Origin: an uncultured Bacteroides sp.
Lineage (GTDB): Bacteria > Bacteroidota > Bacteroidia > Bacteroidales > Bacteroidaceae
Assembly: GCA_947646015.1 (NCBI GenBank)
Contig: CANSEY010000035.1
Span: forward strand, 1-38,292
DNA: 38,292 bases
Direction of reading: 5' to 3'
The position numbers and the translations under genes are program-made. The notes beneath the pieces were generated by a model. The model saw only the letters and a list, made by a program, of their open reading frames with translations. It did no database searches and was not told the origin of the DNA. Every line of letters begins with the position of its first letter. The stretch's first letter is position 1. Shown one piece after another: positions 871-15,776 of the stretch.

Positions 871-912
871 CAATTATTACCTATTACTTAATACTTATTA
901 CTTATTAATACT
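871..912 (-). repeat. Heptanucleotide (ARGTAWT)n array, copy a
   Basis: Read on the minus strand this is a run of 7-bp units: AAGTAAT, AAGTATT, AAGTAAT, AGGTAAT, preceded by AGTATTAAT. It begins inside the last codons of the histidine-kinase gene, encoding its final Ser-Ile-Asn-Lys and TAA, and continues into the gap before the response regulator. The same units recur at 3219-3283, 8741-8901, 11158-11190 and 11567-11595. Confidence 0.8.
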
Positions 913-3218: not shown

Positions 3219-3283
3219 GTTACTTATTACTTAATATTTGATACTTAATACCCAATACCTAATACTTATTACCTATTACTTAT
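3219..3283 (-). repeat. Heptanucleotide (ARGTAWT)n array, copy b
   Basis: On the minus strand there are nine successive 7-bp units (AAGTAAT, AGGTAAT, AAGTATT, AGGTATT, GGGTATT, AAGTATC, AAATATT, AAGTAAT, AAGTAAC). The array starts 2 bp after the ATPase stop codon and ends 8 bp before the permease start codon. It fills almost the whole intergenic gap of the efflux operon. Confidence 0.85.
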
Positions 3284-7190: not shown

Positions 7191-8753
7191 ATGATTGAAA
7201 GTATTGACACCTCGCTGATCGATTGGTCGAGAGCCCAATTTGCGATGACAGCCATGTACCACTGGATTTTCGTTCCGCTCACCCTCGGACTGGCTGTGGT
7301 GATGGGAATAATGGAGACGTTGTATTATAAAACAGGCAATGAATTTTGGAAGCGGACAGCCAAGTTCTGGATGAAACTTTTCGGTATCAACTTCGCCATT
7401 GGTGTAGCGACAGGATTGATCCTGGAGTTTGAGTTTGGTACGAACTGGAGTAATTATTCTTGGTTTGTAGGTGATATTTTCGGTGCACCGCTTGCTATTG
7501 AAGGTATTCTGGCGTTCTTTATGGAAGCCACGTTTATCGCTGTCATGTTCTTCGGATGGGATAAGGTGAGCAAACGCTTCCACCTTGCTTCTACCTGGCT
7601 GACTGGTCTGGGGGCTACGATCTCCGCTTGGTGGATTCTCGTAGCAAACGCATGGATGCAGCATCCGGTAGGTATGGAGTTCAATCCCGATACAGTGCGT
7701 AATGAGATGGTTGATTTCTGGGCGGTGGCAACTTCGCCTGTAGCGGTCAACAAGTTCTTTCATACGGTATTGTCCGGATGGGTACTTGGTGGCGTGTTCG
7801 TTGTAGGAATCAGTTGTTGGTTTCTGCTGAAGAAACGTAATCGCGAGTTTGCGCTTGCAAGCATAAAGATCGGTGCTATCTTCGGGCTTGTCTCTTCACT
7901 GCTGGCTGTATGGACGGGCGATGGTTCCGGCTATCAGATTGCACAGACCCAACCGATGAAACTGGCGGCTGTAGAGGGACTTTATGAAGGAGGAACCAAT
8001 GTAGGTCTGGTGGGAATAGGAATGCTGAACCCCGAAAAGAAGACTTACAATGATGGGAAAGACCCTTTCCTGTTCCGGATTGAGATACCCAGTATGCTTT
8101 CGTTCCTTGCCGAGCGGGATGTGGACGGGTATGTCCCCGGAATTACCAATATTATCGAAGGCGGCTATCAGCTGAAAGACGGTACGACTGCTTTGTCGGC
8201 AGCCGAAAAGATAGAGCGGGGTAAGACCGCTATCGGAGCGCTGGCTGCTTATCGTGCAGCGAAGAGCGCCGGGCACGAGGAAGATGCCGCTGTTGCCTAT
8301 CAGGTTTTGCAGGAGAATATGCCATACTTCGGATACGGATATATTAAAGATGTGAATCAGCTGGTTCCGAATGTTCCTCTGAACTTCTACGCTTTCCGTA
8401 TAATGGTTATCCTGGGCGGATATTTTATCCTTTTCTTCATCGTTGTGCTCTTCTTTATATATAAGAAAGATTTGAGTAAGATGCGCTGGATGCATTGGAT
8501 CGCTCTGCTGACCATTCCTTTGGCTTACATTGCCGGACAGGCAGGATGGGTGGTTGCCGAATGCGGTCGTCAGCCTTGGGCTATCCGCGATATGCTTCCT
8601 ACATCGGCGGCTATCTCTAAATTGGATGTAGGCTCCGTTCAGGCTACTTTCTTTATCTTCCTGATCTTGTTTACCGTAATGCTGATTGCGGAGATAGGGA
8701 TTATGGTGAAGGCGATTAAGAAAGGACCGGAAGAAGAGATAAGTAATAGGTAA
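7191..8753 (+). CDS. cydA: Cytochrome bd ubiquinol oxidase subunit I
   Basis: This is the 520-residue quinol-oxidizing subunit of the bd-type terminal oxidase, which reduces oxygen to water at very low oxygen levels. The N-terminus matches the family (SRAQFAMTAMYHWIFVPLTLGL) with the probable haem-b595 ligand His24. The conserved quinol-loop/haem motif ECGRQPW is at about 457-463. Multiple hydrophobic helices follow the known CydA topology. The Q-loop region is longer than the minimal type, with an inserted segment of about 100 residues (roughly 270-390). The last codons (Ser-Asn-Arg-stop) are formed by a heptad repeat array, so the C-terminus may be a recent replacement. Confidence 0.97.
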   Translation: MIESIDTSLIDWSRAQFAMTAMYHWIFVPLTLGLAVVMGIMETLYYKTGNEFWKRTAKFWMKLFGINFAIGVATGLILEFEFGTNWSNYSWFVGDIFGAPLAIEGILAFFMEATFIAVMFFGWDKVSKRFHLASTWLTGLGATISAWWILVANAWMQHPVGMEFNPDTVRNEMVDFWAVATSPVAVNKFFHTVLSGWVLGGVFVVGISCWFLLKKRNREFALASIKIGAIFGLVSSLLAVWTGDGSGYQIAQTQPMKLAAVEGLYEGGTNVGLVGIGMLNPEKKTYNDGKDPFLFRIEIPSMLSFLAERDVDGYVPGITNIIEGGYQLKDGTTALSAAEKIERGKTAIGALAAYRAAKSAGHEEDAAVAYQVLQENMPYFGYGYIKDVNQLVPNVPLNFYAFRIMVILGGYFILFFIVVLFFIYKKDLSKMRWMHWIALLTIPLAYIAGQAGWVVAECGRQPWAIRDMLPTSAAISKLDVGSVQATFFIFLILFTVMLIAEIGIMVKAIKKGPEEEISNR

Positions 8754-8901
8754 TAGGTATTAAGTAATAAGTATTAATCGTAGCTGCAGGCTGATTTGTC
8801 ATCATGGTTGACGTTGTTACTTATTATCTATTACTTATTACTTGATACTATACATTGCTTATTACTTGAGCTAATACTTAATACTTAAAACTTAATACTT
8901 A
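8741..8901. repeat. Inverted pair of heptad arrays between cydA and cydB, copy c
   Basis: The left arm, read on the plus strand, holds five units (AAGTAAT, AGGTAAT, AGGTATT, AAGTAAT, AAGTATT; 8741-8775) followed by AATCGTAGCTG (8776-8786). The right arm (8816-8901) holds about eight degenerate units in the opposite orientation. The centre (8787-8815) is unique. The left arm plus its 11-bp flank matches the array beside the four-helix-bundle gene (11556-11595, minus strand). The arms could pair as a hairpin in the cydAB mRNA. The 154-bp gap is long for cydA-cydB. Confidence 0.8.
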
Positions 8902-10200: not shown

Positions 10201-11157
10201 CTATTTATTCACTACATTTTCCGGTGTTCCGGAGATATAAGCCTGTAGATTGCTAATGGCAATATTCATCAGACGCTCACGAGCTTCTGTGCTTGCCCAC
10301 GCGATATGCGGAGTAATGTAGCAGTTCTTTGCAGTCAGCAACGGATTGTCGGCATGAGGAGGTTCCGAAGAAAGTACATCTACTCCGGCAGCATAAATCT
10401 TGCCACTGTTCAGTGCATCTGCAAGATCTTGTTCGTTAACCAATGGGCCACGACCTGTATTAATTAAAATAGCATTCGGCTTCATCAGAGCAAGACGGCG
10501 TGCGTTCACCAATTCGTGAGTTTCCGGAGTGAGCGGGCAGTGCAGACTGATAATATCACATTCGCTGAACAACTGATCCAAATCCATCTTCTTGATTTCC
10601 GGTGGCAACTGGAAGTGAGACTTTGAAGTTAAAGCATATACCTGCATACCGAAACCGATGGCAACGCGAGCAGTAGTATATCCTGTATTTCCCAATCCGA
10701 CAAGACCGATTTTCTTATCCCGTAGCTCTATCAACGGAGTATCCCAAAAACAGAAATCCTTGTTATTGGTCCAACGACCTTTGTGGACTTCTTCCGAATG
10801 ATGCTGTACCTGCTGACAGATATTAAGAATGTGCGCAAATACCATTTGTGCAACGGAAGCTGTACTATATGCAGGGATATTAGTTACAATAATACCACGT
10901 TCTTTGGCTGCTGCCGTATCCACTACATTGTATCCCGTAGCAAGCACACCGATATACTTCAGTTCGGGCAGGGCAGCCATGTGATCGGCGTTGATGATTA
11001 CTTTATTCGTCAGAATCACTTCAGCTCCGGCTGCGCGTTCCAATACTTCTTCGGGGGCAGTACGGTCATAAATGGTACATTCTCCGAGAGCTTTCAAACC
11101 TTCCCATGATAAATCACCGGGATTGGCGGCAAAGCCGTCTAAAACTACTATTTTCAT
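10201..11157 (-). CDS. D-2-hydroxyacid dehydrogenase (glycerate dehydrogenase-like)
   Basis: This 318-residue NAD-dependent enzyme belongs to the D-isomer-specific 2-hydroxyacid dehydrogenase family. It has the nucleotide-binding motif GLGNTG (154-159) and the expected catalytic set: Arg236 in NTGRGPLV, Glu265 in SSEPP and His284 in PHIAWAS. The overall pattern, including the catalytic-domain motif ATGYNVVD near 73-80, resembles hydroxypyruvate/glycerate dehydrogenase (HprA), but the substrate is not certain from sequence alone. A heptad array begins directly upstream of the start codon, so the 5' leader is repeat sequence. Confidence 0.93.
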   Translation of the reverse strand: MKIVVLDGFAANPGDLSWEGLKALGECTIYDRTAPEEVLERAAGAEVILTNKVIINADHMAALPELKYIGVLATGYNVVDTAAAKERGIIVTNIPAYSTASVAQMVFAHILNICQQVQHHSEEVHKGRWTNNKDFCFWDTPLIELRDKKIGLVGLGNTGYTTARVAIGFGMQVYALTSKSHFQLPPEIKKMDLDQLFSECDIISLHCPLTPETHELVNARRLALMKPNAILINTGRGPLVNEQDLADALNSGKIYAAGVDVLSSEPPHADNPLLTAKNCYITPHIAWASTEARERLMNIAISNLQAYISGTPENVVNK

Positions 11158-11190
11158 AATAAGTAATAAGTAATAAGTAATAAGTAATAA
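11158..11190 (-). repeat. Heptanucleotide array, copy d (3' side of four-helix-bundle gene)
   Basis: Four perfect plus-strand copies of AAGTAAT (11161-11188) follow a partial unit that abuts the dehydrogenase start codon. On the minus strand the array lies 3 bp past the stop of the four-helix-bundle gene and reads ATTACTT, opposite to copy e. Confidence 0.9.
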
Positions 11191-11193
11191 ATA

Positions 11194-11556
11194 TTATGGG
11201 GCATTCCCATTATTTTTTAGTTTTACAATTGTGGCTGTCAGTAATTTAAGAATTTCCAGACAGTCTGTATTAATTGATTCATATTCTTCATCGCTTATAT
11301 ATTCTGTTTGTTGAAGTAAATATAGCCAGTATTCTGTTTCAGAACATTCTTTTAGAGAAATGGAATATTTGTGTATAAAGTCAAGATGAGACTCAGCATA
11401 GACAGCCTCTCTTATATTAGCTCCTATCGAAGTCCCGCTACGTAATAATTGTTTTGAAAGAATCGTTTCCTTTTTGCAATCCCTTAAATATTTATATAGA
11501 TTAATTATTCGAATTGCAAACCTCGTTGATTTCTCTTTCATCAAGTTTTCTTTCAC
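11194..11556 (-). CDS. Four-helix-bundle protein (S23/IVP family)
   Basis: This 120-residue, mostly helical protein belongs to the four-helix-bundle/S23 family, first known from intervening sequences in 23S rRNA and related in fold to Avd of diversity-generating retroelements. The family hallmark SKQLLRSGTSIGANIREA (about 39-56) is intact, followed by a helix with SLKECSETEYWLYLL. The chosen start is GTG at 11554-11556, because family members usually carry a few residues before the KEKS segment; the ATG at 11539-11541 is the alternative. The biochemical function of the family is not established. The gene lies between inverted heptad arrays and looks like an insertion into a rarA-dehydrogenase gene pair. 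Confidence 0.85.
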   Translation of the reverse strand: MKENLMKEKSTRFAIRIINLYKYLRDCKKETILSKQLLRSGTSIGANIREAVYAESHLDFIHKYSISLKECSETEYWLYLLQQTEYISDEEYESINTDCLEILKLLTATIVKLKNNGNAP

Positions 11557-11595
11557 AGCTACGATTATTACTTATTACCTATAACTTATTACTTA
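11556..11595 (-). repeat. Heptanucleotide array, copy e, with conserved 11-bp flank
   Basis: On the minus strand four units (AAGTAAT, AAGTTAT, AGGTAAT, AAGTAAT) run from the rarA stop codon to AATCGTAGCTG (11556-11566), which abuts the GTG start of the four-helix-bundle gene. The same order, units then AATCGTAGCTG, is seen at 8741-8786. Confidence 0.85.
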
Positions 11596-12861
11596 TTTAA
11601 ACCTTTCTCCCCATAACTGCTGCATCCGTTCTGCATGCTTCTGTTCGGCGGCATTGTTCTGAGGTTGCCATATTCGTTTTTCTTTCAGCTCGTCCGGCAA
11701 GAATTGTTGTTTCACGAAGTTGCCTTCGTAGCTGTGGGCGTACTTGTATTCTTGTCCATATCCCAGTTGCTTCATCAGCTTGGTGGGAGCATTGCGTAAA
11801 TGCAGAGGTACAGGCAAGTTTCCGGTGGAACGTACCAGCTCTAATGCATCGTTAATGGCACTGTATGCCGAATTGCTTTTAGGACTCGTTGCCAGATAGA
11901 TCGTTGTTTCCGCCAAAGGGATGCGCCCTTCGGGCCAACCGATTTTCATCAGAGTTTCAAAGCAGGCATTCGCCAGCAGCAATGCGTTCGGATTGGCCAG
12001 ACCTATATCTTCGGCGGCAGAGATAACGAGTCTCCGCGCGATGAAAGCAGGGTCTTCACCACCTTCTACCATGCGGGCGAGCCAGTAAATAGCCCCGTCC
12101 GGATCACTGCCACGGATAGACTTGATAAAAGCGGAAATGATGTCATAATGCATTTCCCCGTCCTTGTCGTAAGCCAACGGATTCTGTTGCAGACGTTCGG
12201 TCACCATGTCATCGGTGATGACAACCGTTTCCTCTGTGTCCGATTCCACTACAAGTTCAAGTATATTGAGCAGTTTACGGGCGTCTCCGCCGGAGAAGCG
12301 CAGCATGGCTGTCGTTTCTTTGAGTTCGATTTTCCGTTCTTTCAGTATGGTGTCGGTGGTGATGGCACGTTGCAGAAGTTCGAGCAAATCTTCCTTTTCC
12401 AAAGATTTGAGCACATAAAGCTGGCAACGGGAGAGGAGAGGGCGGATCACTTCGAATGATGGATTCTCGGTCGTTGCGCCTATCAGCGTCACCGTACCGT
12501 TTTCCACAGCTCCCAACAAAGAATCCTGTTGCGACTTGCTGAAACGATGGATTTCATCGATAAACAAGATCGGACTGGATTGCGAGAAAAAGCGGTTGCT
12601 CTTGGCACGCTCTATCACTTCGCGCACATCTTTGACGCCTGAAGTCACGGCACTCAGCGTATAAAACGGAGTTTCCAGTTTATTGGCGATAATCTGTGCC
12701 AATGTGGTTTTTCCCACTCCGGGAGGTCCCCAGAGGATAAACGAAGAAATACGTCCCGCATCAATCATCTTACGCAGGATAGCCCCCGGTCCAACTAAAT
12801 GTTTCTGACCGATATAATCATCCAATGTCTTTGGTCGTAACCGTTCTGCTAAAGGTTGCAT
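11593..12861 (-). CDS. rarA: Replication-associated recombination protein RarA/MgsA
   Basis: This is a 422-residue clamp-loader-like AAA+ ATPase that acts at stalled replication forks. It has Walker A GPPGVGKT (45-52), Walker B ILFIDEIHRF (98-107) followed by sensor motif GATTENPSFEV, and an arginine-finger motif in LLSRCQLYVL. The C-terminal half holds the MgsA tetramerisation region (YAHSYEGNFVKQQFLPDEL). The start ATG is 4 bp after the DUF5686 gene, so the two are probably co-transcribed although functionally unrelated. The stop codon lies at the edge of heptad array e. Confidence 0.96.
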   Translation of the reverse strand: MQPLAERLRPKTLDDYIGQKHLVGPGAILRKMIDAGRISSFILWGPPGVGKTTLAQIIANKLETPFYTLSAVTSGVKDVREVIERAKSNRFFSQSSPILFIDEIHRFSKSQQDSLLGAVENGTVTLIGATTENPSFEVIRPLLSRCQLYVLKSLEKEDLLELLQRAITTDTILKERKIELKETTAMLRFSGGDARKLLNILELVVESDTEETVVITDDMVTERLQQNPLAYDKDGEMHYDIISAFIKSIRGSDPDGAIYWLARMVEGGEDPAFIARRLVISAAEDIGLANPNALLLANACFETLMKIGWPEGRIPLAETTIYLATSPKSNSAYSAINDALELVRSTGNLPVPLHLRNAPTKLMKQLGYGQEYKYAHSYEGNFVKQQFLPDELKEKRIWQPQNNAAEQKHAERMQQLWGERFK

Positions 12862-15666: not shown

Positions 15667-15776
15667 GTTGAAACAAAAAGTTTCATGCCTTGAAACTCTA
15701 GTTCCCACTGCTTGAAACTCTGGTTTCTACGCCTTGAAACTTTGGTTTCCTCGGCGTGAAACTTTCTGAAACACTT
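15667..15776. repeat. Five tandem 22-bp palindromic repeats
   Basis: Units start at 15667, 15689, 15711, 15733 and 15755, an exact 22-bp period. Each has a core of TGAAAC, and most have a nearby GTTTC or GTT-like partner (for example GAAAC-TTTG-GTTTC at 15737-15750). The array overlaps a perfect palindrome at its left edge, TGTTTCAA-CGG-TTGAAACA (15657-15675). It lies in the 416-bp gene-free stretch 15443-15858, about 200 bp upstream of the DUF5686 promoter and downstream of the WecB-like gene. The 22-bp period is about two helical turns and is not a multiple of three. Confidence 0.85.

Follow-up and report, generated by a model that had tools for sequence, protein, structure and literature searches.

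An S23-family gene framed by inverted heptanucleotide arrays in a Bacteroides operon, a candidate intervening element outside ribosomal RNA

Introduction

In the genome of an uncultured Bacteroides sp., a small gene of the S23/IVP family is flanked by rarA and a 2-hydroxyacid dehydrogenase gene, and arrays of a 7-nt repeat stand on both of its sides in opposite orientation. This arrangement raises the question of whether gene and arrays form one unit and, if so, of what kind. The window, by which we mean the whole stretch of 38,292 nt that was analysed (contig CANSEY010000035.1), had been given a first-pass annotation in which the arrays were the ends of a small mobile unit and paired with each other in its transcript.

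The four-helix bundle of the S23 family is related in fold to Avd (PF22296), a protein of diversity-generating retroelements. Solved structures of S23 proteins include 2rld and 2gsc, the latter being XCC0516 of X. campestris. According to the accessible part of PMC4990558, the family is without known function, and the Coxiella element in 23S rRNA has two to three tandem heptamers before its ORF, variable among strains, is cut out by RNase III and carries an ORF undergoing reductive evolution.

Short repeats near gene ends have also been described in other settings. The cyanobacterial STRR are kindred heptamer repeats, and in REP/RAYT systems a gene-bearing unit with inverted ends is accompanied by many short gene-less copies near gene ends. 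In Xanthomonas, convergent array pairs of the GGGAATC type lie close together, 70 in Xcc and 75 in Xac, and stem-loops or cruciforms have been suggested for them; G-rich heptamers occur also in Nostoc (available text of PMC4692102). Intergenic TAACTGA repeats are shared by Beggiatoaceae, Cyanobacteria and Bacteroidetes, with no evident transfer mechanism and an unexplained origin in what is available of PMC4679880.

We propose, with about even confidence, that the feature is an operon-resident intervening element made of an S23/IVP gene and inverted arrays of about 7 nt, and a relative of the 23S rRNA intervening sequences.

Results

The element in the window

The element and its host genes are laid out as follows, all on the minus strand.

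11194..11556, minus strand: S23/IVP four-helix-bundle gene, 120 aa from GTG 11556, with an internal ATG at 11541
11565..11597, minus strand: 5' arm, (AATAAGT)n array, 4.7 copies of 7 nt with 84% matches, containing the rarA stop codon 11593-11595
11157..11190, minus strand: 3' arm, inverted array, 4.9 copies of 7 nt with 100% matches
11556..11566, minus strand: inner edge motif AATCGTAGCTG, varied forms of which are common to gene-less copies
11593..12861, minus strand: upstream host gene, rarA/MgsA-type AAA ATPase
10201..11157, minus strand: downstream host gene, 2-hydroxyacid dehydrogenase

The ORF matches the profiles PF05635 (E 1.9e-28, 99.2 bits against a cut-off of 33.8) and TIGR02436 (E 1.5e-31, 108.8 bits against a cut-off of 24) and, in the PDB, 2rld (E 2.9e-40). 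It is a member of the S23/IVP family above both curated cut-offs. The two arms pair over 33 nt with 94% complementarity and 374 nt between them, so that the first-pass description of an S23/IVP-like gene between rarA and the dehydrogenase, with heptamer arrays in opposite orientation, is confirmed. All three genes share one direction, the element fills the gap between rarA and the dehydrogenase, and its 3' arm abuts the dehydrogenase start codon (11155-11157). The protein is near neutral, with a pI of 6.9; the S23 medians are 8.5 and 8.8.

When the full element is folded as RNA, a long stem is predicted with the gene in its loop (z -5.2), and 0 of 100 shuffles were as stable. One feature of a 23S rRNA intervening sequence, a stem of complementary ends around an ORF, is thereby found in both the pairing and the predicted fold. 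The element is not inside an rRNA gene, Rfam at the gathering threshold finding only a tRNA in the window. The encoded protein contained no Y1/HUH transposase or other catalytic domain, PF05635 being the only domain found, and no reverse transcriptase is beside the gene, its neighbours being rarA and the 2-hydroxyacid dehydrogenase.

Inverted arms recur around S23 genes

The arrangement was sought elsewhere by comparing the 250-nt upstream flank of each S23 gene with its reverse-complemented downstream flank; a score of at least 12 was counted as a match, a cut-off chosen after looking at the data, and related loci are not independent in the resulting counts. Within the genus, own arms matched at 81 of 87 S23 loci; mismatched pairs gave 20/348, and the direct orientation 13/87. 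This set comprises 92 of 144 matches (the source genome's own 2, 30 with loci and 60 taken regardless of arrays), from which 5 were dropped for short flanks. Among the best 80 of at least 568 relatives, drawn from many phyla, 53 had matching arms (mismatched pairs, 8/320; direct orientation, 10/80). Eight named genomes gave 18 of 29 (mismatched, 2/145), this set being 29 of 40 matches with the short locus L364 left out; 8 of these loci belong to the cross-phylum 80 as well, and the other 21 gave 14. In Cyanobacteriota, own arms matched at 21 of 28 loci (mismatched, 4/140), the 28 coming from 29 new loci less L402, which was not located. Matching arms fell below the cut-off at 27 of the best 80 of at least 568 loci in other phyla and at 7 of the 28 in Cyanobacteriota. 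S23 loci with matching inverted arms were found also in Geobacter and Thiohalocapsa. The first-pass expectation that such arrays would be met near other four-helix-bundle genes is thus borne out at S23 loci, where they are frequent.

The commonest array period is 7 (92 of 174 flanks in the genus and 58 of 160 in the others, against 0 in shuffles), and periods of 8-11 occur in some. In one Anabaena locus (L374, Anabaena sp. UHCC 0204) the inverted repeat at the S23 gene spans about 90 nt, far more than the array by itself.

The related Avd genes behave differently: no matching inverted arms were found at 10 of 10 Avd loci, against 12 of 18 for S23-type proteins in the same search, the two types having been separated by score and, by eye, by sequence, and two loci having been dropped (L329, short; L323, ORF mislocated). 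An RT-like motif stands beside 5 of the 10 Avd loci. Matching arms were present at 14 of 192 control genes, and each of the 14 adjoins or overlaps an S23 gene; the counts were 1/31 and 0/10 for controls away from S23 and 9/111 and 13/103 for those beside it. Four conserved 23S words, which make a weak test, had no exact match at the 172 genus and cross-phylum loci.

These counts bear on the explanation that slippage gives some genomes inverted heptamer arrays between their genes quite generally, and that the S23 gene lies among them by chance. It would be in keeping with the many gene-less arrays of the source genome, with the arrays of other units that other species carry at the cydA/cydB gap (both described below) and with the 70-75 Xanthomonas inverted pairs, for which the available text of PMC4692102 gives no S23 link; however, control genes away from S23, Avd loci and mismatched pairs (about 1-6%) seldom or never show matching arms, and the arms return at S23 loci as distant as those of Geobacter and Thiohalocapsa. 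We consider a chance association very improbable.

The arms adjoin the ends of neighbouring genes

At 98 of 119 loci no more than 30 nt separate the start of the 5' arm from the upstream stop codon (median +1), and at 52 of the 119 the arm begins before the end of that codon. For the 3' arm, the median distance from its end to the following start codon is 10 nt (n=121), as estimated by taking the first start codon after the arm. The 5' arms are C-poor (8%), and a stop codon in all three frames is present in 69/113 of them, against 36/113 of the 3' arms and 25/113 of the shuffles.

The S23 gene is codirectional with both neighbours at 66 of 92 loci in the genus and at 55 of 80 elsewhere; it runs against both at 2 and 3, respectively. 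Other genes in the stretches around these loci gave 76/120 with both neighbours and 3/120 against both, and the genes of the window 10/29 and 1/29. In their orientation S23 genes thus behave like operon genes, and a bias that resembles the one of ordinary operon genes counts against the intervening-element reading. The host operons include what we take, from translations read by eye, to be the conserved pairs adk-obg, frdA-frdB, serC-serA and argC-argD, and no functional theme was visible among translations of S23-neighbouring genes read in the same way.

Gene-less copies share the unit and the edge motif

The source genome sequence amounts to 4.9 Mb and is 74.7% complete, so that whatever is counted in it is a minimum. 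The AAGTAAT array in three exact copies was found at 2 places in these 4.9 Mb, and the reversed control at 0. In degenerate form, the unit of the window S23 copy was found at 19 places or more; the 19 are the S23 copy itself, 11 gene-less inverted pairs and 7 arrays without a clear partner (2 borderline). Where both arms fit the pattern, the order is array and then inverted array. A form of the edge motif is present in 11 of the 11 gene-less pairs, CGTAGC in 9 and CGAAG in 2 as judged by eye. In the manner of MITEs, these are short copies elsewhere that have the ends of the gene-bearing element, in both unit and edge motif. The motif pattern caught 9 of the 11 pairs; all 9 lie in sense orientation to the upstream reading frame, and their array match begins at most 14 nt from its end. 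The following copies lie in the window itself.

8739..8901, plus strand: gene-less element with the unit of the S23 copy, in the cydA/cydB gap; the pair of inverted arrays itself lies at about 8740-8851, with further array copies after it
8776..8786, plus strand: inner edge motif AATCGTAGCTG of the cydA/cydB gene-less element
874..907, minus strand: single array between genes, with the unit of the S23 copy; no inverted partner found
3221..3282, minus strand: single array between genes, with the unit of the S23 copy; no inverted partner found

The array at 8739-8765 supplies the C-terminal codons of cydA (ISNR and stop), and relatives without the element have a different cydA end. A further tandem repeat of the window, with a 22/44-nt period (CTTGAAACTCTGGTTTCCACGG), lies at 15680-15763 between a DUF5686 gene and an epimerase gene.

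The first-pass annotation had put forward AATCGTAGCTG together with the arrays as a signature to search for, and this holds in part: in the window the motif adjoins an array at each of the two inverted elements, but 3 of its 7 matches in the source genome are within other genes.

The source genome has a second S23 gene, presumably a neighbour of araA, which is bracketed by inverted arrays of another unit, AATTGAC, and this unit occurs at 3 further sites. Another species of the genus has array copies at several sites and yet no S23 gene at its rarA gap, which speaks against the intervening-element reading. The gene-less copies are probably deletion derivatives of S23 elements.

Gain, loss and selection

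The rarA/dehydrogenase gap was compared at 30 loci of the genus, not all of whose gaps were parsed. Clean gaps of 18-26 nt were found at 5 of the 30 (L117-L120 and L124), which are the empty sites that the first-pass annotation had proposed to look for at this junction. The window arrays overlap stop and start regions, and no target duplication is readable from the empty sites. At L104, where rarA is 98% identical, the insertion is present too, with an S23 ORF 88.7% identical. At L110 the gap holds a 145-nt remnant in which C-terminal S23 codons stand between array pieces, that is, an internally deleted copy, and L116 has a similar but shorter stretch. In other species (L107 and L113) the gap holds a different palindromic insertion, of GTGTAATCC type. 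In others again (L049, L053 and L074) the S23 gene is on the other side of rarA, beside a gene that by eye is DUF5686-like; the rarA neighbourhood thus appears to have been entered on both sides. The cydA/cydB gap was compared in 30 genomes, one of them (G053) misparsed: it measures 11 nt in 6 and 25 nt in 3, holds a TAAGTAWT element in 4/30 and, by eye, inverted arrays of other units in at least 3/30. Taken together, the empty gaps, the decayed copy and the 11 gene-less pairs support what would be a past dispersal of S23 elements.

S23 genes are patchy in the genus, being present in 85 of 149 genomes at 0-8 copies, and the 92 genus loci fall into up to 46 contexts. Loci at different contexts share their unit in 17.6% of 170 pairs whose S23 proteins have an identity of 0.6-0.8, in 3.9% at 0.5-0.6 and in at most 1.1% below 0.5 (Mantel, 0/300). 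Because similar S23 proteins share a unit at different contexts, gene and ends seem to have moved together. That units follow related proteins in this way, and that gene-less copies share unit and edge motif, lends support to the first-pass view of the arrays as the ends of the element. The overall correlation of protein and unit is weak (Spearman 0.18, and 0.08 among other phyla), and this, the loci without matching arms and the near-neutral pI of 6.9 are to be counted against the intervening-element reading.

All 27 ORF pairs that are at least 80% identical share their context, 26 on both sides and 1 as seen on one side only, so that no recent jump of an S23 gene was seen among them, and recent jumping was rejected as a candidate for these pairs. 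In 19 S23 pairs, which share loci and in which dS is partly saturated, dN/dS is 0.00-0.08, which suggests that the protein is kept by selection where it sits. The mobile unit of the first-pass annotation therefore stands as a matter of historical dispersal; current mobility finds no counterpart in the shared contexts or in the strong purifying selection, which a host function and a selfish one would explain equally well.

It might accordingly be asked whether S23 is a domesticated regulator, a host RNA- or DNA-binding protein acting on its own operon, with the arrays as its binding site and as an mRNA processing or insulating hairpin, and with mobility long past. The low dN/dS, the inheritance in the same context in 27/27 close pairs, the sense orientation and the placement in conserved operons are what such a regulator would be expected to show. 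However, its patchy presence and its many contexts are difficult to reconcile with this role, as are the dispersed gene-less copies and the lack of a functional theme seen in the neighbours. We regard domestication as unlikely, though as the strongest competitor of the intervening-element reading.

Arms change in concert

The repeat unit varies from locus to locus and is common to both ends of one locus. In ten groups of loci of the same context, the own-arm sum was 1050 against a permuted mean of 831, and 0 of 20,000 permutations were as high. The signal is carried by three groups of eight loci each (13/5000, 13/5000 and 0/5000); two groups run counter to it, their own arms matching at best as well as permuted ones (116/120 and 6/6), and the remaining five are small. 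In the group L028-L050 the period goes from 8 to 11, with both arms still matched. Between close pairs no signal of concerted change was found (6 for, 7 against, 9 ties); it is seen only among diverged loci of one context.

An RNA-level wobble signature of the arms was rejected: arm mismatches have no excess of G.U on the mRNA strand, with 80 against 113 on the antisense strand in the genus and 89 against 93 in other phyla. Since mismatches do not favour mRNA-strand G.U pairs, the matching of the arms may be kept at the DNA level. Pairing of the arms in the transcript, as proposed in the first-pass annotation, is supported by modelling, in that the predicted RNA fold agrees with it, but this pattern of mismatches lends it no support.

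Could the element, then, work at the DNA level throughout, with S23 binding DNA hairpins at the ends and the remaining steps left to replication or a host nuclease, in the manner of REP/RAYT and with no role for RNA? Inverted ends with gene-less copies, arm matching without a wobble signature and concerted arm change, as palindrome correction would give, all accord with this possibility. Set against it are the absence of a catalytic domain among those found and the sense orientation of 9/9 gene-less copies with the upstream gene, which a DNA element does not need, although selection could explain it. We think a purely DNA-level element rather improbable, less so than a chance association of gene and arrays and more so than domestication.

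Discussion

The operon-resident intervening element thus remains the explanation that we prefer. At the level of sequence, its anatomy, its recurrence across phyla, its empty and decayed sites and its gene-less relatives with unit and edge motif are established, and comparisons of the same kind establish the link between unit type and protein type, the concerted arms of several groups and the purifying selection on the S23 protein. The element sits in sense orientation in a short gap, with its 5' arm at the upstream stop codon and its 3' arm before the next start. Paired in the mRNA of the operon, or in single-stranded DNA, the arms would form a long stem, and RNase III might cut it, by analogy with the 23S rRNA intervening sequences. 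An S23 pentamer may bind its own hairpin and aid the upkeep or rare spread of the element, and arm identity is probably kept by slippage and by palindrome (hairpin-template) correction in DNA.

It would be tempting to go further and regard S23 genes with array ends as pan-bacterial minimal elements that encode one factor only, the S23 pentamer, by which array hairpins are maintained and now and then spread. A sizeable share of the heptanucleotide arrays that lack an explanation in Bacteroidota and Cyanobacteriota, and perhaps in Xanthomonas, would then be gene-less derivatives of such elements, with the rRNA intervening sequences as the branch that resides in rRNA. We offer this wider proposal tentatively and with less confidence than the reading of the window element. 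If it is true, it joins the old question of how rRNA intervening sequences arose to the equally old one of why bacterial intergenic DNA is overly rich in heptanucleotide repeats (accessible portions of PMC4679880 and PMC4692102). For the S23 family, inverted arrays with a unit tied to the protein type would offer a concrete candidate substrate.

The nearest likeness is to the 23S rRNA intervening sequences of Leptospira and Coxiella, which share with the window element the S23 family, an ORF within a stem of complementary ends and a patchy presence. Those sequences sit in rRNA, whereas the window element lies between protein genes; unlike them, it has tandem arrays with a locus-specific unit for both arms; and its protein is under strong purifying selection, in contrast to the reductive evolution of the Coxiella ORF (PMC4990558, in the part available). 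The Xanthomonas and Nostoc heptamers likewise form intergenic arrays, in Xanthomonas also in inverted pairs, but one G-rich unit per genome is described, and S23 or four-helix proteins are mentioned 0 times in the available part of PMC4692102. The TAACTGA repeats resemble the arms in being intergenic heptamer arrays near gene ends in the same phyla; they are, however, mainly direct repeats, and the accessible text of PMC4679880 describes no link to an S23 gene. In comparison with REP/RAYT, the S23 element is without an HUH/Y1 transposase and its ends are tandem heptamer arrays, while Avd (PF22296) differs in the lack of matching inverted arms at the 10 loci compared, and the window S23 gene differs from it in having no reverse transcriptase beside it.

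A search of the literature, subscription journals being mostly outside it, found no link of S23 genes outside rRNA to inverted arrays, and the only S23 ORF beside tandem repeats within this coverage was that in the available part of PMC4990558. The association of S23 with inverted arrays itself, its breadth and the concerted, locus-specific units seem to be new; for Xanthomonas, inverted heptamer pairs have been published before, with no S23 link (PMC4692102, as available). Another case of an operon gap is listed in Table 5 of PMC5524665, in the portion of that paper available: a four helix bundle gene of Flavobacterium columnare lies between guanylate kinase and nucleotidyltransferase genes, separated from each by about 35 nt in one strain, and is placed inside predicted phage regions.
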